Source of the DNA: Chitinophagales bacterium
Lineage (GTDB): Bacteria > Bacteroidota > Bacteroidia > Chitinophagales > UBA10324
Length of the DNA: 64,000 bases
Reading direction: 5' to 3'
NCBI GenBank assembly: GCA_013816805.1
Contig: JACDDS010000007.1
Span: forward strand, 62,001-126,000
The notes under the pieces were generated by a model. It saw nothing but the letters and a program-made list of their open reading frames with translations. It was not told the origin of the DNA and did no database searches. Both the position numbers and the translations under genes were made by a program. This document shows, piece by piece, positions 27,391 to 42,665 of this stretch (position 1 is its first letter; each line of letters begins with the position of its first letter).

Positions 27391-28140
27391 CTATTTAGTG
27401 TATGAATGGAAGATTCCATTCCACTTCATTTTTAAAACTCCAATAACCGCTTCCTTAAAAATACCTTTGCTCATCTTCGAATTACCTTTTATGCGATCAG
27501 TGAATGTGATGGGCACCTCCTTAATTTTAAAGCCCAGCTTCCAGGAGGCATACTTCATTTCAATCTGAAAGGCATAACCCACAAATTTTATTTTATCAAG
27601 GTCTATTGCTTCCAGTACTTTTTTCCGGTAACAAATGAAACCTGCCGTAGTATCCGAAATAGGCATCCAGGTAACGAGCCGAACATACATAGATGCATAC
27701 TTTGACATAAACACGCGACCTGTTGGCCAGTTCTTTACATGACCCCCACGTGTATACCGGCTACCAATTGCTACATCACATCCCTGGTAAGCACAGGCTT
27801 CGTATAGCCGCTGTATGTCTTTGGGAGGATGAGAAAAATCAGCATCCATTTCGAATATATACTCATATCCTTTTTCAATGGCCCATTTAAATCCTGCAAT
27901 ATATGCAGTGCCGAGTCCCTGTTTATTTTTTCGTTCGAGGAGAAAAAGTTTATCAGGATATGATTTCTGAAGGCTTTTTACAGCAGTTGCAGTCTGATCC
28001 GGAGATCCGTCATCGAGAATTAATACATTGGCTTCAGGATAAAGAAAAAAAATTTCACCGATCATCCGGGAAATATTTTCCCGCTCGTTATAAGTCGGTA
28101 TGGTAATAATGGTATTTTTCAATCCGATGGTATTCCTCAA
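27391..28140 (-). CDS. Dpm1-like polyprenol monophosphomannose synthase (GT2)
   Basis: 249 residues. No in-frame ATG is available: the frame starts at a TTG at 28140, or at a second TTG at 28122 that would align better with the family (M-KNTIITIPTYNE). It is a family 2 glycosyltransferase without added membrane helices: PTYNERENI, LILDDGSPDQT, NKQGLGTAYIAGFKWA, EMDADFSHPP (DxD metal site) and GSRYTRGG. Such enzymes move mannose or another hexose from a nucleotide sugar to a polyprenyl phosphate on the cytosolic face. The product would feed protein O-glycosylation, known in Bacteroidota, or surface glycans. Confidence 0.87.
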   Translation of the reverse strand: MRNTIGLKNTIITIPTYNERENISRMIGEIFFLYPEANVLILDDGSPDQTATAVKSLQKSYPDKLFLLERKNKQGLGTAYIAGFKWAIEKGYEYIFEMDADFSHPPKDIQRLYEACAYQGCDVAIGSRYTRGGHVKNWPTGRVFMSKYASMYVRLVTWMPISDTTAGFICYRKKVLEAIDLDKIKFVGYAFQIEMKYASWKLGFKIKEVPITFTDRIKGNSKMSKGIFKEAVIGVLKMKWNGIFHSYTK

Positions 28141-31554: not shown

Positions 31555-32952
31555 ATGAAATTTTATCTGACCTTAAGCGTCGTTACAATATCAATAATAG
31601 TTGACTCATGTAATGGGGGAGCACCCCGTAACAATATATTAGTTGCTGAAGATAGCACGCAAAAGGTTGATTCTTCATTTCTTGATTCACTTTCTCTCCA
31701 TACATTCCATTATTTCTGGGATCTTGCAGAACTATCAAACGGAAATATTCCCGACCGTTGGCCTACAGAGAGCTTTTCCAGTATAGCAGCTACGGGTTTT
31801 GGACTTACATGCTATCTGGTTGGTATTGATCGCGGTTATATAAGCAGACAGCAGGGGGCTGAACGGGCATTAAAAACCCTGCTATTTTTTGCAAATGCTC
31901 CAAAAGGGGATTCAAAGGCAGGCATTACCGGCAACCATGGGTTTTTTTATCATTTTATTGATATGAAAACAGGTTTGCGTTTTAAGGACGTAGAGCTATC
32001 CACTATAGATACAGGATTATTAATGGCGGGAATTCTTTCCTGCCAAACCTATTTTGACGGAGAAAATGATACAGAGCGTGAAATTCGTGAATTGGCAGAT
32101 TCCCTTTACAGAGGTGTACAATGGAATTGGGCTATGAATGGAGGAAAAACTATGAGCATGGGCTGGCATCCGGAAAGTGGATTTCTGGATGTTTCGTGGA
32201 AAGGATACAATGAAGCAATGATCCTATACATACTGGCACTTGGATCGCCAACGTACCCGGTACCGCCTTCTGCATGGGAAGAATGGACAAAGACCTATTT
32301 GTGGGCAAAATTTAATGGACAGGATATGATCAATTTTGGTCCCCTCTTCGCACATCAATATTCACAGATGTACATTGATTTCAGGGGAATCAGGGATTCT
32401 TTTATGCGCAGCAAAGGGATCGATTATTTTGAAAATTCCAGGAGGGCGACCTACTCAAACCGCACTTATTGTAGTAATAATCCGGCTGGGTTTGATGGCT
32501 ACAGCGAAACAATTTGGGGATTAACAGCTTGTGATGGTCCGGGTAATTCCAATAACGTAAATCCAAATATATCTTTTATGGATTATGCTGCCCGTGGTGC
32601 TGCCAAAGGCAATATAGTGGATGATGGTACTATTGCTCCTACAGCTACGGGTGGTTCGGTTGCATTTGCACCGGAAATTTGCATACCCGCATTGGAAAAC
32701 ATGTACCGTAAATATGGAGATAAAATATACGACAGATATGGCTTTAAGGATGCCTTCAACCTGAGTTTTTTAAGCAAAGACGGTATTCAAGGATGGGTTG
32801 ATGTGGATTATTTAGGTATAGATGAAGGTCCTATTGTTATTCAGCTTGAAAATTATCGTTGTGGCTTGATTTGGGATCTGATGAAAAAAAATAAGTATAT
32901 AGTAACGGGTTTAAAGAAGGCAGGATTTACCGGCGGATGGCTGGAACAATAG
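31555..32952 (+). CDS. Glycoamylase-family (GH144-type) beta-1,2-glucanase
   Basis: 465 residues. The N-terminus is a likely lipoprotein signal (Cys at residue 19, VDSC). The rest matches the Glycoamylase family (PF10091), which includes GH144: HTFHYFWDLAELSNG near residue 50, IAATGFGLTCYLVGIDRGY, FKDVELSTIDTGLLMAGIL with the conserved acidic residues, SWKGYNEAMILYILALGSPTYP, and GFDGYSETIWGLTACDGPG. The founding GH144 enzyme, from Chitinophaga pinensis, is an endo-beta-1,2-glucanase. It lies 39 bases upstream of glgA on the same strand. It is probably periplasmic or surface-bound, releasing beta-1,2-gluco-oligosaccharides; the substrate is inferred from the family. Confidence 0.85.
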   Translation: MKFYLTLSVVTISIIVDSCNGGAPRNNILVAEDSTQKVDSSFLDSLSLHTFHYFWDLAELSNGNIPDRWPTESFSSIAATGFGLTCYLVGIDRGYISRQQGAERALKTLLFFANAPKGDSKAGITGNHGFFYHFIDMKTGLRFKDVELSTIDTGLLMAGILSCQTYFDGENDTEREIRELADSLYRGVQWNWAMNGGKTMSMGWHPESGFLDVSWKGYNEAMILYILALGSPTYPVPPSAWEEWTKTYLWAKFNGQDMINFGPLFAHQYSQMYIDFRGIRDSFMRSKGIDYFENSRRATYSNRTYCSNNPAGFDGYSETIWGLTACDGPGNSNNVNPNISFMDYAARGAAKGNIVDDGTIAPTATGGSVAFAPEICIPALENMYRKYGDKIYDRYGFKDAFNLSFLSKDGIQGWVDVDYLGIDEGPIVIQLENYRCGLIWDLMKKNKYIVTGLKKAGFTGGWLEQ

Positions 32953-32991
32953 CTAGTTACAAATCTGATTTTACAACTGCTTTTAATCACT

Positions 32992-34419
32992 ATGGAAATA
33001 TTACATGTAAGTGCAGAATGTTATCCGGTTGCAAAGGTTGGTGGACTTGCAGATGTTGCCGGAGCATTACCGAAATATTTAAACAGGGCAGGAGCTGTTG
33101 CAAGGTTGATAATGCCTTATTATAATAATAAATTTATTAAGAAACACGATTGGGAAACAGTGTTTGAAGGCAACTTTCCACTTGGTACACTTAGCTATCA
33201 GTACCGGATTCTTAAAGAGAAAAATGGGACATTAGGATTTGACCTTTTTGTCACAGAAATTCCGGGTTTACTGGAAGAAGAGCTGCCGTATGGCTATAGT
33301 AATGATCTGGAGCGTCATATCGGTTTTCAAATTGCCGTTGTCGACTGGCTTAGTCATGCTGAACATCAATACGATGTAATCCACTGCCACGATCACCATA
33401 CAGGATTGATTCCTTTTATGATGAATTATTGTTACAGCTATGATATGCTGAGTAAAATACCGACCGTTTTCACCATACACAATGGCCAGTATCAGGGCTA
33501 TTTTTTAAAAGAACAGCAACATTTAATTCCACATTATGATAATTGGAAACAAGGTTTACTGGAGTGGAATAACACCATTAATCCCATGGCCGCCGCAATT
33601 AAATGCTGCTGGAAATTCACCACCGTTTCACCAAATTATCTTAATGAGTTGAGGAATGATGCCTTTACACTTGAATCGCTGATCGTAAGCGAAAAAGATA
33701 AATCAACAGGTATTCTTAACGGTATAGATGCGGATATCTGGAATCCTGAAACAGATTCCTGGATAGAAAAAACATACAATTCTGCAGGTGTGACCAAGGG
33801 CAAAACAAAAAATAAAAAGGCCTTGCTGAAAGAATTTCATTTGCAATCCGGGTTGAAGAAACCCTTAGTAATCTTTATTGGACGATTAGTTGCGGAAAAG
33901 GGCGGTGATGTGCTGGCCGAAAGTATCCGCCAGTCTGTTTCTGAGCTTAAGGGTAATATCAGTTTTTTGGTTCTGGGAAGTGGTGTTAAACAGTACGAAA
34001 CTGATTTAAAGGTGCTCAGAGAATTACTGCCTGAAAATTTCAATTGTTATATTGGATACAATGAAAAGCTTGCACACCTGATGTATGCTGGTGCAGATTT
34101 TCTGCTGATGCCCTCACGTATGGAACCATGCGGATTAAATCAATTATATGCCCTGCATTATGGTACTGTTCCTATTGTGCGAAGCACTGGCGGCTTAATA
34201 GATACGGTTCTTGATTTGGAAGAAGAAGGATTTGGTATACGGTTTACCAGTACCTCCTTTCCGGATATTTCTCTTGCATTAAAAAGAGCTGAGGCATTAT
34301 TCATTAATGAGGACAAGATAAAAAAAATAAAAAAGCAAATTATGAATATTGATCATTCATGGGAACAAGTAACAGGTGAGTATATGGATTTGTATTCCAG
34401 TCTAAAGAAAGATGTTTAA
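32992..34419 (+). CDS. glgA: Glycogen synthase
   Basis: 475 residues, a GT5 enzyme that extends alpha-1,4-glucan from ADP-glucose in the cytosol. The N-terminal LHVSAECYPVAKVGGLADV contains the substrate-binding KVGGL motif. DVIHCHDHHTGLIP, FTIHNGQYQG, GILNGIDADIWNPE, IGRLVAEKGGDVL and PSRMEPCGLNQLYAL (Glu-rich catalytic region) follow in order. It is 89 bases upstream of glgC, together supplying both committed glycogen steps; no branching enzyme is in the window. Confidence 0.95.
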   Translation: MEILHVSAECYPVAKVGGLADVAGALPKYLNRAGAVARLIMPYYNNKFIKKHDWETVFEGNFPLGTLSYQYRILKEKNGTLGFDLFVTEIPGLLEEELPYGYSNDLERHIGFQIAVVDWLSHAEHQYDVIHCHDHHTGLIPFMMNYCYSYDMLSKIPTVFTIHNGQYQGYFLKEQQHLIPHYDNWKQGLLEWNNTINPMAAAIKCCWKFTTVSPNYLNELRNDAFTLESLIVSEKDKSTGILNGIDADIWNPETDSWIEKTYNSAGVTKGKTKNKKALLKEFHLQSGLKKPLVIFIGRLVAEKGGDVLAESIRQSVSELKGNISFLVLGSGVKQYETDLKVLRELLPENFNCYIGYNEKLAHLMYAGADFLLMPSRMEPCGLNQLYALHYGTVPIVRSTGGLIDTVLDLEEEGFGIRFTSTSFPDISLALKRAEALFINEDKIKKIKKQIMNIDHSWEQVTGEYMDLYSSLKKDV

Positions 34420-34508
34420 ATTGATTTTTGAATCGGAATGCAGTGTATTGTTAAGCTGTTAAATTAAAGATGGGAGGGTTACATTAAGAGAATATAAAAA
34501 CGCTTACT

Positions 34509-35786
34509 ATGCAACAGGAAAAAGTGATTGCAGTCATATTAGGTGGGGGAGCCGGAACGAGATTATTTCCCCTTACAGCCTACAGAGCAAAGCCCGCGGT
34601 ACCTATTGCCGGCAAATACAGGTTAGTTGATATACCTGTTTCCAATTGTATCAACTCGGGTATTCAGCGCATGTTTGTGCTTACACAGTACAACTCAGCA
34701 TCCCTTAACAGGCACATTAAAAACACCTATCACTTCAGCGCTTTCAGTAAAGCATTTGTGGATATACTCGCGGCTGAACAAACCCAGGATAATCCAATGT
34801 GGTTTATGGGAACCGCTGATGCTGTTCGGCAGTCAATGCATCATATCAATAACCATGATTTTGATTACGTCCTGATACTTTCCGGTGATCAGTTGTACCA
34901 GATGAATTTAATGGACATGCTTGATCACCATAAAAAAATGAACGGTGATATAACCATTGCTACCATACCGGTTCATGACAAGGATGCCCCTGAATACGGT
35001 ATTATGAAAACCAGTGATGCGGGGTTCATTGATTCCTTTATTGAAAAGCCTAAAACAGAACTTTTACCCGATTGGCAATCGGAAGTAAGTGAAGGAATGA
35101 AAGGCCAGGGTAGACTCTATCTGGCATCTATGGGAATTTATGTTTTCAACCGGCAGGTTCTTTCTGACCTGCTTCTTCAAAAAAAGGAAGCTACCGATTT
35201 TGGGAAAGAGATTATACCTCAATCTATCGGGAATTATAAGATGGTAAGTTACCAGTATGAAGGTTATTGGACGGATATTGGTAACATCCGTTCTTTTTAT
35301 GAGGCAAATCTTGCTCTTACTGATGAAATTCCTCAATTCAACTTGTTCGATGTTAACCGGGTAATTTATACGCACGGTCGCATGCTCCCGCCTGCAAAAA
35401 TTTCTGGTACTACCATCAATGCTTCTATGATTGCGGAAGGCAGTATTGTTCGCGCTGCCAAAGTGGAGCGTTCTGTAATAGGCATACGTTCGCGGATTGG
35501 AGAAGGCAGCGTAATTGTTAACAGTTACATTATCGGGAATGATACTTTTCAATCACTCGAATCTATCAATAGCTCCATCCGTAAAGGTATTCCTATAATG
35601 GGTATTGGCGATAGGTGCTACATTCAAAATACCATAATCGATAAAGATTGCTTTATCGGTAACGATGTGCATATTCAGGGAAGTCCACATCTACCGGATA
35701 TGGATATTGATACCCTTACGGTGAAGGACGGAATAGTAGTGGTTAAAAAAGGCGCTGTAATACCCGATAGGTTCGGATTGGTATAG
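34509..35786 (+). CDS. glgC: Glucose-1-phosphate adenylyltransferase
   Basis: 425 residues. It makes ADP-glucose from ATP and glucose-1-phosphate. The N-terminal nucleotidyltransferase loop GGGAGTRLFPLTAYRAKPAV is complete, with the conserved Lys of the KPAVP step. LSGDQLYQMNL, FIEKP and EGYWTDIGNIRSFYEANL follow. A left-handed beta-helix occupies about residues 300-425. It acts as the partner of glgA immediately upstream. Confidence 0.95.
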   Translation: MQQEKVIAVILGGGAGTRLFPLTAYRAKPAVPIAGKYRLVDIPVSNCINSGIQRMFVLTQYNSASLNRHIKNTYHFSAFSKAFVDILAAEQTQDNPMWFMGTADAVRQSMHHINNHDFDYVLILSGDQLYQMNLMDMLDHHKKMNGDITIATIPVHDKDAPEYGIMKTSDAGFIDSFIEKPKTELLPDWQSEVSEGMKGQGRLYLASMGIYVFNRQVLSDLLLQKKEATDFGKEIIPQSIGNYKMVSYQYEGYWTDIGNIRSFYEANLALTDEIPQFNLFDVNRVIYTHGRMLPPAKISGTTINASMIAEGSIVRAAKVERSVIGIRSRIGEGSVIVNSYIIGNDTFQSLESINSSIRKGIPIMGIGDRCYIQNTIIDKDCFIGNDVHIQGSPHLPDMDIDTLTVKDGIVVVKKGAVIPDRFGLV

Positions 35787-35824
35787 AACGTGCAGGTTAT
35801 CGTTAACATTTTTAATTAATTCCT

Positions 35825-36199
35825 ATGAAATTTATTCCGACCAGGGTTCACGGTTTACTGGATTATGCAGTAGCAGCATTATTTATTGCTTTACCATTCC
35901 TGTTTGATTTTGACCGGAATGGGGCCGAGTCATGGATTTTTATTTCTTTAGGAATAGCTACTATAGTCTATAGTTTACTTACTGATTATGAATTAGGTTT
36001 AATAAAGACTATATCTATGCAGGCGCATTTGCTGCTCGATCTGTTAAACGGTATTTTTCTCGCGGCTTCCCCCTGGATATTTAATTTTCATGAGAAAGTA
36101 TATCTGCCCCATCTATTACTTGGACTTACTGAATTGCTTGTGGTTGTTTTTAGCCAGAGAATTCCTTATAAAAGTGTAACAGGCAGAAGGAAACATTAA
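35825..36199 (+). CDS. SPW-repeat-like small membrane protein
   Basis: 124 residues with four predicted membrane helices. RVHGLLDYAVAALFIALPFL near the start and QAHLLLDLLNGIFLAASPWIF at mid-protein look like two halves of one repeat; the ASPWIF piece is the SPW-family signature. Function unknown. It follows glgC by 38 bases on the same strand and may be co-transcribed with it. Convergent with the MBL hydrolase gene. Confidence 0.7.
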   Translation: MKFIPTRVHGLLDYAVAALFIALPFLFDFDRNGAESWIFISLGIATIVYSLLTDYELGLIKTISMQAHLLLDLLNGIFLAASPWIFNFHEKVYLPHLLLGLTELLVVVFSQRIPYKSVTGRRKH

Positions 36200-36200
36200 G

Positions 36201-37160
36201 TCAATTTTTCCTTTTATCCATGAGTGTTAATAGGATGCCCAACGATATACCTGCCCCAACTGCAATTAAACTTTCTGCAACCGTTTTGGTTATTTTAAAA
36301 GGCGGAATGTACTGTACGCCCTTATCATTCATTTTAGCGGGACTATCCACATAACGCCCTTCTTTGGGAACAGCAATCTTCCGGAAGTTCCTAAGTAAAT
36401 AATCTAATGATTGTTTTAACATCATTCCCTTCATTGGTATTCCGTGACCGGCCGCTAATACAGTTGGTTCTAATGCTATAAGTGATTTTACAGACTCCTG
36501 CGCTGATTGCCAGTCAGGAGTAAAGTATCTTGGTGGGCCTGACAGCACCTTTCGCTGCTGCATTACTGAAATGGCAGATTCCTGCTTCGTGGTTACAATT
36601 GCATCCCCGGAAATCAATACCTTGTCTTTTGGTCGGAAAAGACTTATGTGACCTGGCGCATGGCCTGGGGTATGGATATTTTTCCATTCAGGCAATCCGG
36701 GTACAGATCCATCATCTGGCAGTGGGCGCAGAAATCCTGATACATTGATAGGACCTTTGGGGAAAAGCCAAGACATAAGGGTCATGATTCCCCCACCGGC
36801 AAAAGGATCTGGCGGTGGATAGGAAGATTTGCCTGTTAAATAAGGTGCTTCCAAATGGTGCGCATAAATTGGAATTTGCCATTCTCTCACGAGTTCGATC
36901 AAGGAGCCAATGTGATCAAAATGTCCATGAGTAAGAACGATCGCGGATGGAGTAGATACCTCGGAACCAAAAAGATACTCAGCCATAACCCGGATTTTTT
37001 TGGCCGTTGATGGAATGCCGGTATCAATTAAAACCCATTTATTTTCAACTCTGTTGTATATCATGAAAATGTTGACAAAAATGTCTTTCATACCCCATAT
37101 ATCAGGAGCCACTGTAAACCAGCGCGGATACTTTTCTTTTTTTTGAAATATTTTAGCCAT
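36201..37160 (-). CDS. Metallo-beta-lactamase-fold hydrolase
   Basis: 319 residues. The MBL core has LIDTGIPS, the metal motif THGHFDHIGSL at about residues 77-87, TPGHAPGHISLF near 163, ISGDAIV near 183, and AAGHGIPM near 237. A hydrophobic segment near the C-terminus (AVGAGISLGILLTLM) is unusual for the family and may anchor it to the membrane. The substrate cannot be named from sequence; glyoxalase II-like and lactonase-like members look alike. Confidence 0.85.
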   Translation of the reverse strand: MAKIFQKKEKYPRWFTVAPDIWGMKDIFVNIFMIYNRVENKWVLIDTGIPSTAKKIRVMAEYLFGSEVSTPSAIVLTHGHFDHIGSLIELVREWQIPIYAHHLEAPYLTGKSSYPPPDPFAGGGIMTLMSWLFPKGPINVSGFLRPLPDDGSVPGLPEWKNIHTPGHAPGHISLFRPKDKVLISGDAIVTTKQESAISVMQQRKVLSGPPRYFTPDWQSAQESVKSLIALEPTVLAAGHGIPMKGMMLKQSLDYLLRNFRKIAVPKEGRYVDSPAKMNDKGVQYIPPFKITKTVAESLIAVGAGISLGILLTLMDKRKN

Positions 37161-37304
37161 GGATTATATTTTATCGGGCAGAATTTGAATGATCGTCTGA
37201 TACACAATTGTTATTCCTGATTTTGATACAGATCAATAAGCAGGTATTTAGCCTTTGGAGCGATGGAGTAATATTTGAAATTCATCTTTAGATAAGTAAA
37301 CATT

Positions 37305-40004
37305 ATGAGTCTTACAGAATATAAGAAGAAGCGGTCTTTTTCAAAAACACCGGAGCCTTCAGGGGCTAAGGAACCTGCATCCAATAATGAGTTAATTTTT
37401 GTTATTCAAAAGCATCAGGCCTCCCATTTACATTATGATTTCAGGCTTGAAATAAAGGGTGTTTTGAAAAGTTGGGCGGTACCAAAAGGTCCTTCCATAA
37501 ACCCTGCTGATAAACGTCTTGCAATGCTTGTGGAAGATCATCCTTTTGATTATAAGGATTTTGAGGGTATAATTCCCAAAGGAAATTATGGTGCAGGAAC
37601 TGTAATTGTTTGGGATCATGGAACGTATGAGCCAGCAGAAAAATCAAGTACCAAAGCTGAGAAGGAAAAAATTTTAATGAAAGGGTTTTTTGGTGGTTCG
37701 CTGGCAATTAATATGAAAGGCAAGAAACTGAAGGGTGAGTTTGTGCTTGTGAAAGCTCCCCAGCGTGGAGAAAGATCATGGCTTTTGATAAAGAAAAAAG
37801 ACAAGTTTTCCGCAGAAACCGATATTACTAAGAAGGAAGAATCGGTTATCTCGCATAAAACTCTTAATGAGGTTGCAGCAGATAAAAAAGCTAAACAATG
37901 GATCAGTAACCGTGCCTCCGCCGGCACATTGAAGGAAAATGAATCAGGAGTAAATCAACCCAATGTCCCGTTAGAAAAAAATACTGATTTGGAAGAAATA
38001 GTCCGAAGCATTCTTTTTTCATTAGAAAAGAAGAAAAAATCATCAATGCCTGTGGATATCAAACCAATGCTGGCTACCCTGGTTGATCAGCCTTTTGATG
38101 ACCCGGATTGGATATTTGAAGTTAAATGGGATGGTTATCGTGCCCTTGCCTATTTGAATAATGGAAAAGCAGAGCTGAGGTCGAGAAACAACCATTCATT
38201 CAACGATAAGTTTTACCCCGTTTATAATGCCATGAAAACATGGTCTATTAAAGCGGTAATTGACGGGGAAATTGCTGTGATCAATGAAAAAGGCCTTGCA
38301 GAATTTCAATTGTTGCAAAACTGGACAACGGATAAAAATGGGGAGCTTATTTATTATGCATTTGATATATTATGGCTGAATGGCATTGACTTAATGAGCT
38401 TGCCTTTAACGGAACGGCGGAATATCCTAAGTCAGATAATGCCAGAACATCATTCTATCCGCTTAAGCGAAAATTTTGAAACGAGCGGTACAGAATTTTT
38501 TGCCGCCGCTGAAAAACTTGGAATCGAAGGAATTATCGCTAAAAAAGCAGACAGTGAATATGTACCAAATAATCGTACTAAAAATTGGCTGAAAATAAAA
38601 TCAGGAAAACGCCATGAGGCAATTATCGCAGGCTATACCCGTAATGAGGATACCACTAAGCAATTCAGTGCCCTTATTCTTGCGGTCCATGAAAATGGTG
38701 AATTAAAATTTATAGGGCAGGCTGGCACGGGCTATACTGAAAAGATGAGAACGGAAATATTAAAAAAGCTTAAGCCTTTGGAAACTGAAATATGTCCGTT
38801 CAGGACGGTGCCTGAAGTTAACAGACCCTCTAAGTTTCGCCCGAATCCACCTGAAGCAGAAATTACCTGGGTAAAACCTGAAGTGGTTTGTGAGGTGCGT
38901 TACCAGGAACTTACACTGGAAGGGGTTATGAGGCATCCCTCTTTCCAGGGCTTAAGGATAGATAAAAAGGCTAGGGAGGTAGTGGATGAACAACCTGTTC
39001 ACACCACTAATCTAGTAAATGCATCAAAACCTTCAAAACAAAAAAGAATTGTTGAACCCGGAAACAGGAAAAAATATAATCTTTTAAATGATACGGACGA
39101 ATCACAGTTACTAACTATAAATGGTCACGAGCTTAAGTTTAGTAATCTGGGCAAGATGTTTTGGCCAAAAGAAAAAGTTACGAAGCGTGACATGCTGAAC
39201 TATTACTATAAAGTCTTGCCATATATGCTTCCCTATATGAAAGACAGGCCACAGTCTTTAAACCGTCATCCGAACGGAATCGAAGGCCCTAGTTTTTATC
39301 AGAAAAATGTGGCTGGTAAAGTGGACGACTGGATCGTTACCCATCAGTATAAAAATACATCGCAGGACGGGACCAAAACATTTTTAGTCTGCAGCGATGA
39401 GGCCTCATTGCTTTATATTGCTAACCTGGGCTGTATTGAAATGAACCCCTGGCATAGCCGTACAATTTCCCCCGACAATCCTGACTGGTGCGTAATTGAT
39501 TTAGACCCGGATATCAACACTTTCGAAGAAGTAATTGAAGCAGCAAATGTGGTAAAAAAAGTGCTTGATGCTTTGGGAGTGCCGTCTTTTCCTAAAACTT
39601 CCGGATCCACCGGCATTCACATTTATATTCCGTTAGGTGCGCTTTATACATACGAGCAGTCAAAACAGCTGGCGGAGCTTATTGTAACATTTGTACATGA
39701 AGAAATTACCGGTTTTACCAGCCTGGAAAGAACACCTTCTAAAAGAAAGGGAAAAATTTATCTTGATTTTCTGCAAAATCGGGCTATTCAAACTATTGCA
39801 GCTCCCTATTCGCTCAGGCCTAAACCGGGCGCAACTGTATCTACTCCATTAAACTGGGAAGAAATTAAGCCCGGATTGAAAATACAAGACTTTACGATAT
39901 TCAATACTATGGATAGAATAAAAAACACAGGAGACCTGTTTAAAGGAGTGTTTGGTGAAGGGATTGACATAGCAAAAGTTCTTGAAAAAATGAAATCTCT
40001 TTAG
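37305..40004 (+). CDS. ligD: Multifunctional DNA ligase D (PE-ligase-polymerase)
   Basis: 899 residues with three domains in the order seen in Pseudomonas LigD. The 3'-phosphoesterase domain is at about 1-180 (IQKHQASHLHYDFRLE, GIIPKGNYGAGTV). The ATP-dependent ligase is at about 245-550, with nucleotidyl Lys at residue 274 in EVKWDGYRAL and the later motifs EGIIAKK and NWLKIKSG. The PrimPol-type polymerase is at about 615-899, with VIDLDPD near 732 and KTSGSTGIHIYIPL. It repairs double-strand breaks by non-homologous end joining, normally with Ku. No ku gene is in the window. It is followed by stress-linked genes. Confidence 0.95.
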   Translation: MSLTEYKKKRSFSKTPEPSGAKEPASNNELIFVIQKHQASHLHYDFRLEIKGVLKSWAVPKGPSINPADKRLAMLVEDHPFDYKDFEGIIPKGNYGAGTVIVWDHGTYEPAEKSSTKAEKEKILMKGFFGGSLAINMKGKKLKGEFVLVKAPQRGERSWLLIKKKDKFSAETDITKKEESVISHKTLNEVAADKKAKQWISNRASAGTLKENESGVNQPNVPLEKNTDLEEIVRSILFSLEKKKKSSMPVDIKPMLATLVDQPFDDPDWIFEVKWDGYRALAYLNNGKAELRSRNNHSFNDKFYPVYNAMKTWSIKAVIDGEIAVINEKGLAEFQLLQNWTTDKNGELIYYAFDILWLNGIDLMSLPLTERRNILSQIMPEHHSIRLSENFETSGTEFFAAAEKLGIEGIIAKKADSEYVPNNRTKNWLKIKSGKRHEAIIAGYTRNEDTTKQFSALILAVHENGELKFIGQAGTGYTEKMRTEILKKLKPLETEICPFRTVPEVNRPSKFRPNPPEAEITWVKPEVVCEVRYQELTLEGVMRHPSFQGLRIDKKAREVVDEQPVHTTNLVNASKPSKQKRIVEPGNRKKYNLLNDTDESQLLTINGHELKFSNLGKMFWPKEKVTKRDMLNYYYKVLPYMLPYMKDRPQSLNRHPNGIEGPSFYQKNVAGKVDDWIVTHQYKNTSQDGTKTFLVCSDEASLLYIANLGCIEMNPWHSRTISPDNPDWCVIDLDPDINTFEEVIEAANVVKKVLDALGVPSFPKTSGSTGIHIYIPLGALYTYEQSKQLAELIVTFVHEEITGFTSLERTPSKRKGKIYLDFLQNRAIQTIAAPYSLRPKPGATVSTPLNWEEIKPGLKIQDFTIFNTMDRIKNTGDLFKGVFGEGIDIAKVLEKMKSL

Positions 40005-40284
40005 CAGTTTGTGTTCAGTATATTATTTATAGATATCAGGAAAGAGCTCCTGCAATTACAATTGAAATGTAATAGTCTTTACCCGAAAAAATTTACTAAT
40101 CCCTGGCCGTAAATTCGGGGAATCTATTCTTCATTTCCTATGATATTATATTAAGAAATACGTAGAAATCATTCCACAAAATAAATGTGCTTAGCCAATT
40201 CCACAAAGATAATAGAGGTGGCATTGCAATTGAAGAGTAGATAATCCTTAAGATAATTATAAACCTTTAATAAATCAATAACCA

Positions 40285-41376
40285 ATGAGACGTTCAAACA
40301 ATGGCCGGAACAGGCAAGGATCCTCTTCCAGGTCACAATCACGCAGGCAAGATTTTGCTGGTGATTACGAAGATCGTTATGAAGATGATTATGATGAAGA
40401 GGAAGAAGAGGATGATGATTCGCAAGACAGTTATGAAGACAGAGGCAGCAATGAAGATGATGAGGATGATGATTACGATGATGAGGAAGAAGATGATGAA
40501 CGTGGTGGAAGAGGTCGGCAATCAGGCGGCGGACGTGGTTTTGCGGGTATGGATTCGGGTCGTCAGCGTGGAATAGCACCCATGGGTGGTGAAGTTTCCC
40601 GCAGTGGTCATGATGGCAGAGGTAATGAAGACAATAATAATAGAAGGGGTGGTAATGGCCGTGGAGGAAATCGTGGTGGAGGTAGTGGAAATCGCGGCGG
40701 CAGTAATAGAGGTGGAGGAGGTGAGGGACGTGGTTTTGGAGGAATGGATCCTGAGCGTCAGCGTGAAATAGCACGCAGAGGTGGAAAAGCATCTCATGGA
40801 AGTGGCAGAGGTGGAAACCGTGGAGGAAATGGTGGTGATAGACGCGGAAATGGCGGTGCAGGAAATAGAGGCGGAGGCGGCAGGGGCGGAAATGAAGGCG
40901 GTGGTGGTCGTGGAGGAAATCGCGGCGGGGGTAACAGAGGTGGTGGTGGTGAAGGACGTGGCTTTGCAGGAATGGATCCTGAACGTCAGCGCGAAATAGC
41001 TCGTATGGGTGGTGAAGCTTCACATAGTGGTGGAAGAGGTGGCAATCGTGGCGGTGGCCGTGGTAGAGGTGGAGAAGAATCAGGTGGCGGCAGAGGTGGA
41101 AATGGTGGCGGTGGCAATAGGGGAGATGGTGGAACAGGAAGCAGAGGTGGAAGTGGCGGCGGTCGTGGTGGAAATAGTGGCGGAGGCAGCAGAGGAAGAA
41201 ACGGTGGCGGTGGTGGTGAAAAGCGTGGATTTGCCAGTATGCCAAAATCCCGTGTACGTGAGATAGCACGTATGGGAGGTGAAGCATCTCATGGTGGCGG
41301 AAGGGGCCAGTCTTCAAGTGGCAGAGGCGGTGGTAGGGGTGGAAACAGAGGTGGAGGTCGCGGAGGTTCCAGATAA
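40285..41376 (+). CDS. Acidic KGG-repeat protein with RGG-type low-complexity linkers (expanded YciG type)
   Basis: 363 residues. Residues 1-22 are basic, Ser/Arg-rich; residues ~24-73 are almost wholly Asp/Glu/Tyr. Four KGG (stress-induced protein, YciG-type) motifs follow at about residues 83-105, 148-171, 224-247 and 313-336, e.g. GFAGMDPERQREIARMGGEA. They are joined by Gly/Arg/Asn linkers full of RGG and GRGG units, and the protein ends in a Gly-Arg tail. The first motif is degenerate. YciG of E. coli is only about 60 residues, so this is a greatly enlarged form. It lies 33 bases upstream of a YciF-like gene, paralleling the E. coli yciG-yciF order. Predicted disordered; nucleic-acid binding is inferred from the RGG content. 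Confidence 0.85.
   Translation: MRRSNNGRNRQGSSSRSQSRRQDFAGDYEDRYEDDYDEEEEEDDDSQDSYEDRGSNEDDEDDDYDDEEEDDERGGRGRQSGGGRGFAGMDSGRQRGIAPMGGEVSRSGHDGRGNEDNNNRRGGNGRGGNRGGGSGNRGGSNRGGGGEGRGFGGMDPERQREIARRGGKASHGSGRGGNRGGNGGDRRGNGGAGNRGGGGRGGNEGGGGRGGNRGGGNRGGGGEGRGFAGMDPERQREIARMGGEASHSGGRGGNRGGGRGRGGEESGGGRGGNGGGGNRGDGGTGSRGGSGGGRGGNSGGGSRGRNGGGGGEKRGFASMPKSRVREIARMGGEASHGGGRGQSSSGRGGGRGGNRGGGRGGSR
40531..41292 (+). repeat. Four KGG motif repeats separated by RGG spacers
   Basis: Motif copies begin at about 40531, 40726, 40954 and 41221, with start-to-start distances of 195, 228 and 267 bases. Copies 2 and 3 are nearly identical at the DNA level (both contain ATGGATCCTGA and CGTCAGCG). Spacers are purine-rich GGTGGnGG/AGAGG-type sequence. 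Confidence 0.8.
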
Positions 41377-41409
41377 TACTAACATTTATTAACAGATAAA
41401 TTCTTAATC

Positions 41410-41970
41410 ATGAAAAATTTTTTAAATATGCTAAGCGGTCGAAGTAAAGGCCATGCCGACGGATTTGAAGAATTATTCTATAATGAATTGAGAGATATTT
41501 ATTGGGCTGAAAATGCTTTGGTTCGTGCTTTGGAAAATCTGGCCGATAAGGCGGAAAGCGAAGAACTGGTAAATGCTCTTGAGGATCATATAGATGTTAC
41601 GGAAGATCAGTTGGATCGCCTTGAAGAGGTTTTCGATATTATTGGTGAACCAGTTTCTGGTAAAAAATGCCAGGCTATGGCTGGCTTAATAAAAGAAGGC
41701 AAAGAACTTACGGAAGATTTGGAAGAAGGACCCGTAAGAGATGCGGCAATCATAGCTGCTTGTCAAAAAGTAGAGCATTATGAAATTGCCACTTATGGGA
41801 CACTACGCACCTACGCATCTATTTTGGGATATGAAGAAGCCGAAGACTTACTTCAGGAAACATTAGATGAAGAGAAGGAAGCGGATGAACTTCTGTCTGA
41901 ATTATCAGATGAGATTAATATTGATGTTTTGGTGGAAGATGGAGAGAAAGAAGGGGAGTATGAATATTAA
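41410..41970 (+). CDS. YciE/YciF-like ferritin-fold protein (DUF892)
   Basis: 186 residues, all-helical. FEELFYNELRDIYWAENALVRAL at the N-terminus, EDHIDVTEDQLDRLEEVF, KCQAMAGLIKEG and EHYEIATYGTLRTYA are DUF892 hallmarks; Glu and His residues placed on the four helices suggest a ferritin-like di-metal site. E. coli relatives are induced by osmotic and stationary-phase stress. The C-terminus adds an acidic tail. It is the second gene after the KGG protein and ends before a hairpin terminator. Confidence 0.9.
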   Translation: MKNFLNMLSGRSKGHADGFEELFYNELRDIYWAENALVRALENLADKAESEELVNALEDHIDVTEDQLDRLEEVFDIIGEPVSGKKCQAMAGLIKEGKELTEDLEEGPVRDAAIIAACQKVEHYEIATYGTLRTYASILGYEEAEDLLQETLDEEKEADELLSELSDEINIDVLVEDGEKEGEYEY

Positions 41971-41985
41971 GATCTATCTTTTTTG

Positions 41986-42026
41986 CAATTGCCCATGTAA
42001 AATCTTTATGTGGGCAATTGTATTTT
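41986..42026 (+). terminator. Hairpin terminator after the YciF-like gene
   Basis: CAATTGCCCA (41986-41995) pairs perfectly with TGGGCAATTG (42011-42020), followed by TATTTT. It lies 15 bases after the stop. Confidence 0.75.
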
Positions 42027-42127
42027 ACCCAGTAAGTGATGATTTTTTCTAACATTAATCAATACTTAGTAATTTCACCTTCTTCAGAAAACGCTGTATA
42101 ATCATTTTAAACTTTAAAATTCTAAAC

Positions 42128-42322
42128 ATGAAAATCAATAATTCATTTCTCTTTGGTTTAGCTACAGGCATCAGCATCGGTTATTATCTTGCCACCGACG
42201 ATAAAGACCAATTAATGGAAAATGTTAGAGGCAAAGCAAACCAGGCAAAGAATCTGGTGGAAGATGGCATTGAGAAAGGCAAGAAGGTGGTGTCCGATAT
42301 CCGTGCTAAAAGAAATGAGTAA
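42128..42322 (+). CDS. YtxH-like small protein
   Basis: 64 residues. A single N-terminal hydrophobic segment with Gly spacing (FLFGLATGISIGYYLA) is followed by a charged amphipathic helix rich in Lys, Glu and Ala (VRGKANQAKNLVEDGIEKGK). This is the YtxH/general-stress small-protein architecture. It likely sits in the inner membrane with a cytoplasmic helix. Flanked by terminators on both sides, so it is expressed alone. Confidence 0.7.
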   Translation: MKINNSFLFGLATGISIGYYLATDDKDQLMENVRGKANQAKNLVEDGIEKGKKVVSDIRAKRNE

Positions 42323-42345
42323 TCTTATGTAAAATAGTTTTCCTG

Positions 42346-42380
42346 AAAATCCTATTACCAATAAGTAATAGGATTTTCTA
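42346..42380 (+). terminator. Hairpin terminator after the YtxH-like gene
   Basis: AAAATCCTATTAC (42346-42358) and GTAATAGGATTTT (42365-42377) form a perfect 13-bp stem with the 6-base loop CAATAA. Confidence 0.8.
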
Positions 42381-42470
42381 ATATTATGAAATAAATTTCC
42401 GGGATTGTTTTTGGATTTAACCTTCCTGAGAAATGGTTCATTACTAAAAAACTCTATTTAAGTCAATACT

Positions 42471-42665
42471 ATGAATTTAAAAAGATTATTTGGAGCTGTG
42501 TTAACTATTTTGGGAATCATCGGGTTGATCTATGCTGCAGTATTGTTTGTAAATGGCTCCGGTAATGGCAGGGATGTTCGAGCACTTACTATTTATGGTA
42601 TGCTTGGATTAATTTTTTTTATTGCCGGTATCGGATTGGTTCGCACTATAAAAGATGATGCTTGA
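42471..42665 (+). CDS. Small two-helix membrane protein
   Basis: 64 residues with two predicted membrane helices (about residues 7-27 and 41-58) separated by a short polar loop containing NGSGNGRD. Similar tiny proteins are frequent near stress genes in Bacteroidota; no function is known. Convergent with the metallophosphoesterase gene 15 bases away. Confidence 0.65.
   Translation: MNLKRLFGAVLTILGIIGLIYAAVLFVNGSGNGRDVRALTIYGMLGLIFFIAGIGLVRTIKDDA

Follow-up and report, generated by a model that had tools for sequence, protein, structure and literature searches.

Why does a bacterium carry a long, block-charged KGG protein, and what does this protein have to do with the ferritin-like protein encoded directly behind it? 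The two genes lie at positions 40285 to 41970 of the window, by which we mean the whole 64,000-nucleotide stretch analysed from a Chitinophagales bacterium (contig JACDDS010000007.1). The first encodes a YciG-type KGG protein, the second a DUF892 (YciF-like) protein, and 33 bp separate the two open reading frames (ORFs), both on the + strand. We find that a block-charged KGG protein, predicted to be disordered, and a DUF892 protein form a recurrent neighbouring pair in Bacteroidota. The elements of the window pair are as follows.

40285–41376, + strand: acidic-headed, RGG-rich KGG protein, 363 aa (ORF; PF10685, E 5.3e-25; AlphaFold2 mean predicted local distance difference test score, pLDDT, 45.6)
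40285–40353, + strand: basic N-terminus, residues 1–23, net charge +6 (residue and charge count)
40354–40500, + strand: acidic head, residues 24–72, net charge -31 (residue and charge count)
40531–40605, + strand: KGG motif copy 1, residues 83–107, degenerate, with no predicted helix and outside the profile matches
40606–40725, + strand: RGG linker 1, residues 108–147
40726–40800, + strand: KGG motif copy 2, residues 148–172, predicted helix at 156–165
40801–40953, + strand: RGG linker 2, residues 173–223
40954–41028, + strand: KGG motif copy 3, residues 224–248, the best Pfam stretch, predicted helix at 232–241
41029–41220, + strand: RGG linker 3, residues 249–312
41221–41295, + strand: KGG motif copy 4, residues 313–337, predicted helix at 321–330
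41296–41373, + strand: RGG tail, residues 338–363
41410–41970, + strand: DUF892 (YciF-like) ferritin-like protein, 186 aa, net charge -35 (PF05974, 180 bits)

We compared the KGG ORFs that bear an acidic block with those that do not. A DUF892 ORF lay at most 200 bp downstream on the same strand of 33 of the 38 acidic-block KGG ORFs vs 1 of the 37 others (Fisher p 8e-15). One relative genus (g55 of f24) supplies 28 of these 33 pairs, so that the rows lack independence, and the acidic-block cutoff of 15 was set after a first look at the data. The set consisted of the KGG ORFs picked by a regular expression in the window, in six named Bacteroidota loci and in L119–L187, with duplicates removed; 28 other named loci (L010–L042, from other phyla or unclassified) were omitted, and L131 and L139 are absent since the expression gave no ORF there. 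The single non-acidic KGG ORF with a DUF892 gene was from Hymenobacter (L038). The most telling feature is that the acidic block itself goes with DUF892. Outside the window, the pair recurs in g55, in G066 of f23, in G449, in G571 and in Flavitalea sp. BT771 (Chitinophagaceae, L039), the last being a named example. We count three or four separate settings: g55; several f20 genomes together with Flavitalea; the window; and G066, a possible transfer, as its DUF892 sequence nests in the g55 clade.

KGG proteins proved uncommon in Bacteroidota. Performing the profile search on sampled genomes, we found a KGG match in 14 of 395 Bacteroidota genomes and in 25 of 396 genomes from the order, the window's own genome being included in both counts, and in none of the 15 other genomes searched from its own family. 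The acidic type made up 9 of the 14 KGG-bearing genomes of the phylum sample. In g55, a match occurred in 26 of 60 species, and every one of the 31 KGG ORFs fetched from this genus by a match had the acidic block. Four additional g55 species (G777, G789, G797 and G825) have an acidic KGG ORF beside DUF892 that falls below the profile threshold.

The initial annotation of the locus had likened the gene order to E. coli yciG-yciF, and in E. coli K-12 the KGG gene does lie directly upstream of the DUF892 gene, as in the window. The yciG and yciF genes share their operon with katN (PMC6262077), the catalase member of the enterobacterial yciGFE-katN operon; in g55 the pair is likewise usually followed by a catalase gene, which encodes a heme enzyme (PF00199) as opposed to the non-heme KatN. 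The usual g55 order is bacilliredoxin, CRP-type regulators, acidic KGG, DUF892, heme catalase, zinc alcohol dehydrogenase, CinA-domain protein and short-chain dehydrogenase. The neighbour families were defined as BLAST clusters, with Pfam run on one representative per cluster. The catalase is present downstream in 22 of the 28 paired g55 loci and is missing from six, one of which (L161) ends with its contig soon after DUF892. These regulator, catalase and dehydrogenase cassettes of one relative genus bear out the stress context that had been proposed for the pair.

YciG, YmdF and a paralogue are reported to be RpoS-regulated, unstructured and linked to heat, acid and other stress (PMC7161692), and the YciG homologue PA2146 of P. 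aeruginosa has a part in biofilm formation (PMC9262955). Both KGG and DUF892 proteins count as stress proteins, and the portions of the literature consulted offer no settled mechanism. We recognised no description of acidic-block KGG proteins paired with DUF892 among the titles and abstract openings listed by searches of the open-licence PMC literature, and the pair would seem to be a variant of the YciG-YciF arrangement not previously recognised in the literature searched. It offers a handle on what YciG-type proteins do to YciF-type proteins, as the charge pattern is conserved in relatives, is tied to one folded partner and, in one genus, sits inside a catalase/regulator cassette.

What kind of protein is the upstream member? 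Its assignment to the YciG-type family holds, the PF10685 profile matching the 363-aa ORF in three stretches with 87.6 bits (curated cut-off 20.4; E 5.3e-25). The chain had been said to contain four KGG motifs. Four copies do begin at residues 84, 149, 225 and 314, of which the profile accepts three, the first being degenerate. The literal tripeptide KGG stands in none of the four, which read MGGE, RGGK, MGGE and MGGE; the profile tolerates such variants, and therefore family membership rests on the profile. The strongly acidic head described earlier is present as well (33 Asp/Glu and 2 Lys/Arg at residues 24–72), lying after the basic residues 1–23. Behind it, the Arg/Gly chain (residues 73–363) has a net charge of +33; the whole protein has 24 RGG tripeptides and is 37% Gly (133 of 363 residues). 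YciG has been described with a Walker A motif (PMC9262955), whereas the pattern GxxxxGK[ST] was not found in the window translation. On the opposite strand, a His/Leu-rich ORF of 382 aa (40169–41317, - strand) overlies the KGG gene and is most likely a by-product of the Gly/Arg codons.

The earlier claim of a giant among proteins of about 60 residues stands in part. E. coli YciG has 59 aa and possesses neither acidic head nor RGG chain, but the Bacteroidota KGG ORFs run longer than YciG, so that the window protein is giant only in a relative sense. Among the Bacteroidota loci retrieved, KGG ORFs lacking the acidic block are mostly of 72–136 aa, L028 (215 aa) and L009 (318 aa) being longer, and the acidic-block ORFs other than the window's (363 aa) span 126–343 aa. 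The search for further KGG proteins brought up relatives (g55, G066, G449, G571 and Flavitalea) with an acidic block, an Arg-rich low-complexity chain, an adjacent DUF892 gene and motifs mostly of the IARMGG[QE]ASHGG kind, all as in the window; their chains are rich in Ser, Gly and Arg and, unlike the window's, hold 0–7 RGG. The RGG tripeptides as such are a speciality of the window protein, the common feature being an acidic block with an Arg/Gly/Ser-rich chain. In Flavitalea, G350 and G449 a KGG-like motif also precedes the acidic block, unlike in the window. As a separate observation, the exceptional Hymenobacter sp. BT770 ORF (L009, 3602–4561, 318 aa) has five KGG motifs with mixed-charge linkers such as DERDEDQRG; no DUF892 occurs in its 8.5 kb locus, and it is another route to a longer KGG protein.

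Performing AlphaFold2 prediction from a six-row alignment, we obtained pLDDT below 50 for 262 of the 363 residues, and just three helices (156–165, 232–241 and 321–330), one per intact KGG copy. No folded domain of this protein matches Pfam. We read the model as a disordered chain in which three helices are stickers. The RGG count and the charge blocks exceed what composition gives. The 24 RGG compare with 8.0 ± 2.3 expected from whole-protein shuffles, and the 23 RGG of the linkers with 10.3 ± 2.3 from linker shuffles; none of 2000 shuffles reached the observed value in either case. Charge segregation was above all 300 shuffles at block sizes of 6, 20 and 40 (z 6, 12 and 19). Eukaryotic RGG (glycine-arginine-rich, GAR) proteins resemble it in their RGG-rich disordered chains, with no homology shown; the window protein differs in having no Pfam folded domain, an acidic head in cis and KGG motifs. 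It offers a natural bacterial RGG-type chain for condensate work.

Low-complexity chains of this kind could also grow neutrally, with RGG linkers and acidic tract arising as functionless products of slippage. Relatives differ in chain length and in the number of motifs, and within 40000–42500 Tandem Repeats Finder picks up six arrays, all short and imperfect, five of them inside the KGG gene. However, the longest exact direct DNA repeat from residue 73 onward is 15 nt, and for each of eight Gly/Arg peptides occurring 2 to 8 times, every copy has its own DNA spelling (GRGGN in 8 of 8). Between the KGG motif copies, the proportion of synonymous differences (pS) is 0.45–0.68 and that of nonsynonymous differences (pN) 0.09–0.29. 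We found no close relative of the window KGG gene itself, and the selection result covers the g55 relatives. In seven g55 species pairs, pN/pS was far below 1, at 0.04–0.13 for the acidic head, 0.11–0.22 for the RG linkers and 0–0.08 for the KGG motifs; these close pairs were picked by hand, some share genomes, a few approach saturation at synonymous sites, and low-complexity alignment favours identity; gap columns number only 2 and 7 in two of the seven pairs. Thus, head and linkers are under purifying selection in this genus. Because its copies are spelled differently and selection acts in g55, the window chain does not look like a slippage product, and we regard neutral growth as highly improbable.

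The downstream protein is best compared with solved DUF892 structures, the nearest being 4eru (E 1.8e-35), 7tmv, 2gs4 (E 7.7e-34) and 2gyq. Its conserved Glu/His columns are intact (Glu34, His60, Glu122, His123, Glu125, Glu154 and Glu155). Three DUF892 proteins reduced free iron and increased magnetic retention in E. coli (PMC5126674), and by analogy the window protein probably holds iron. With a net charge of -35 it is more acidic than any other DUF892 protein in direct pairing with an acidic-block KGG ORF; one further DUF892 protein (L233 of G813) is more acidic still (-42, with a C-tail of net -32).

Our preferred, though tentative, reading is that the pair is a stress module, in which the disordered KGG protein would act as the electrostatic partner of an iron-sequestering ferritin-like DUF892 protein. 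In oxidative stress or starvation, iron would be taken up by the DUF892 protein, with the KGG protein as its unfolded partner. The Arg/Gly chain would grip nucleic acid as well as the surface of DUF892, which is strongly acidic. The acidic head would compete with both for the chain, keeping it soluble and its contacts reversible. The outcome would be an electrostatic assembly placing an iron sink near DNA or RNA, a split counterpart of Dps. We infer the iron uptake by the window DUF892, the contact between the two proteins, the nucleic-acid binding and the condensation. This reading draws on the 33 of 38 vs 1 of 37 pairing, its recurrence with a window DUF892 outside the clade of the others, the selection and the redox cassette in g55, the acidity of the paired DUF892 proteins of g55 and of the window against the basic N-tails of most unpaired g55 ones, the iron precedents for DUF892, and, in the window's own genome, the intact Glu/His columns and a DUF892 paralogue followed by an iron permease gene. 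A precedent in the phylum is Rho of Bacteroides thetaiotaomicron, where short charged motifs in a disordered region control RNA-dependent condensation by complex coacervation, which in vivo also requires ppGpp (PMC13269538). The likeness lies in the charged disordered segments; Rho differs as an essential enzyme with a KE-rich subdomain, and the abstract of that report mentions neither KGG nor DUF892 (PMC13269538).

The main rival is a hydrophilin-like shield, related in kind to late embryogenesis abundant (LEA) proteins: the KGG protein would be a bulk disordered protectant against drying, freezing or aggregation, and DUF892 would merely be co-regulated, with no physical partnership. We hold this explanation to be nearly as probable as the stress module. 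YciG has been termed a hydrophilin, a class defined by high Gly content and a high hydrophilicity index (PMC5437024), and YciG-type proteins are reported as unstructured (PMC7161692); the window protein is Gly-rich and predicted to be disordered. In addition, the low-complexity composition varies in detail between lineages, and the net charges of paired and unpaired DUF892 proteins overlap outside g55. On the other hand, both the coupling of acidic block to DUF892 and the strong constraint on head and linkers in g55 exceed the apparent needs of a bulk protectant.

Alternatively, the KGG protein may be a metal-handling scaffold with no part for nucleic acid. Its Asp/Glu head would capture iron or other cations and supply or seed mineral at DUF892, and its Arg-rich chain would attach to the acidic surface of the ferritin-like protein. 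We consider this unlikely. The head does put 33 Asp/Glu into 49 residues, the Flavitalea and G813 DUF892 proteins have long acidic C-tails of their own, and one own-genome DUF892 gene adjoins the iron permease gene. However, the long Arg/Gly chain and the KGG helices are left unexplained, and acidic tracts are common as solubility or inhibitory elements. Iron sequestration by DUF892 proteins (PMC5126674) suits a scaffold as well as the stress module.

Was the pair inherited once? We built DUF892 trees of 94 rows (leaving out L188, a duplicate, L174, with DUF892 in two frames, and L238, a fragment), of 57 rows (also without eight name prefixes, covering nine long-branch or odd rows, and 28 near-relative rows) and of 29 hand-picked rows. 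The paired DUF892 sequences of g55, G066 and f20/Flavitalea formed one clade with a support of 100/99 in the 57-row tree, and the same clade without G066 received 100/98 in the 29-row tree. The window sequence fell outside. Placing it inside was rejected by the approximately unbiased (AU) test, with p 0.0126 (57 rows) and 0.0053 (29 rows), and a single clade of all paired DUF892 sequences was accordingly set aside. A wider group of the paired clade, the window, its own paralogue L192 and L189 was not rejected in the 29-row tree (p 0.097). Given this wider group, the long branch of the window sequence and a tested group that was named once the first tree had been seen, the extent of the tree claim is that the window DUF892 does not lie inside the paired clade.

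The paralogue L192, which has no KGG neighbour, is closer to the paired clade than the window DUF892 is (99/94 and 99/95), and L192 with L189 is sister to that clade. From these placements, the pair in the window genome was probably assembled independently, or its DUF892 replaced, so that the pairing would have been made or remade more than once. The position of the window DUF892, beyond the clade that holds the other paired sequences, makes it improbable that the pairing is a single accident passed on by descent.

In g55, the charges of paired and unpaired DUF892 proteins contrast. All 31 paired proteins have a negative net charge (-16 to -23) and an N-tail close to neutral, whereas 31 of the 39 unpaired ones bear a Lys-, Ala-, Pro- and Thr-rich N-tail with a net charge of +6 to +13. 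Such tails (L163, L166, L168 and part of L200–L224), many of them with KTPAKK, resemble histone H1 tails; they are possible cis DNA-binding tails on a ferritin-like protein. An extended form of the stress-module reading would have nucleic-acid grip and iron sink divided between the disordered KGG protein and the acidic DUF892, the two forming reversible nucleic-acid assemblies under stress; partnerless DUF892 proteins could carry the grip as an H1-like lysine tail, and the division would have arisen or been rebuilt at least twice. We hold this extended form as doubtful. The likeness to Dps would be in proposed function only, namely iron sequestration near nucleic acid under stress: DUF892 belongs to a different branch of the ferritin-like fold (PMC5126674), and Dps holds both parts in one protein, whereas here a second, disordered protein would supply the nucleic-acid part.

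Two stricter rules did not survive. That paired DUF892 proteins are the acidic ones holds within g55 only, and a rule of lysine tail or partner, never both, was dropped given the basic tails on the paired DUF892 proteins of G449 and Flavitalea. We also dropped G813 (L233) as a case of an RG-only partner with the acidic block shifted to the DUF892, its upstream ORF being startless and reaching the contig end. At this DUF892 locus (G813:C328, 1911–2864), the upstream ORF consists of repeated, AT-hook-like DNPGRPRGSRN units.

Several observations weigh against the stress-module reading, besides the dependent rows and the late cutoff of the pairing count. Five of the 38 acidic-block KGG ORFs have no adjacent DUF892: the second copies in g55 L163, L166 and L168, the borderline L144, and G350 (L121), where the genome's DUF892 lies about 9 kb away, after another Arg/Gly-rich ORF of 135 aa. 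Conversely, a paired-clade DUF892 in G794 (L235, G794:C1, 728–5000) has no acidic KGG, catalase or alcohol dehydrogenase beside it. The regulator, DUF892, CinA and short-chain dehydrogenase of the g55 cassette remain there, and no + strand frame above 80 aa occurs in the 735 bp ahead of its DUF892 frame; therefore, that DUF892 can persist alone. The catalase of the g55 kind was not found in the stretches fetched around the paired loci outside g55 (L122, L123, L137 and L188) or in window positions 28001–54000, and in the window's own genome the cassette parts are scattered, the sole heme catalase match adjoining a different DUF892 gene. As to charge, unpaired DUF892 proteins outside g55 are also negative (-5 to -20) and overlap the paired ones, the paired proteins of G449 and Flavitalea have basic N-tails (+9 and +13), and 8 of the 39 unpaired g55 proteins are without a strong N-tail. 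The g55 contrast itself may stem from one division into two clades.

The scattered parts of the own genome are as follows. A DUF892 paralogue with a Lys-rich tail at its end precedes the heme catalase gene by 44 bp (L193, G000:C15, 5596–8417). A third DUF892 gene adjoins a zinc alcohol dehydrogenase gene, and the fourth is L192 (G000:C4, 5469–6741), which is followed by the gene of a low-affinity iron permease (PF04120).

Upstream of the pair, the window encodes glucoamylase-like, glycogen/starch synthase-like and GlgC-like proteins and DNA ligase D (31555–40004), the last of which adds one line to the features.

37305–40004, + strand: DNA ligase D with ligase, phosphoesterase and primase-polymerase domains, ending 280 bp before the KGG gene (context)

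Ku is encoded elsewhere in the genome. This mix of glycogen genes and DNA ligase D presumably recalls the P. aeruginosa stress region around PA2146. Downstream of the pair lie genes for a zinc peptidase and a pyridoxamine-oxidase-like protein. Two ORFs of 64 aa without a Pfam match also follow the pair, at 42471–42665 and at 42128–42322; the product of the latter resembles a YtxH-type small stress protein.

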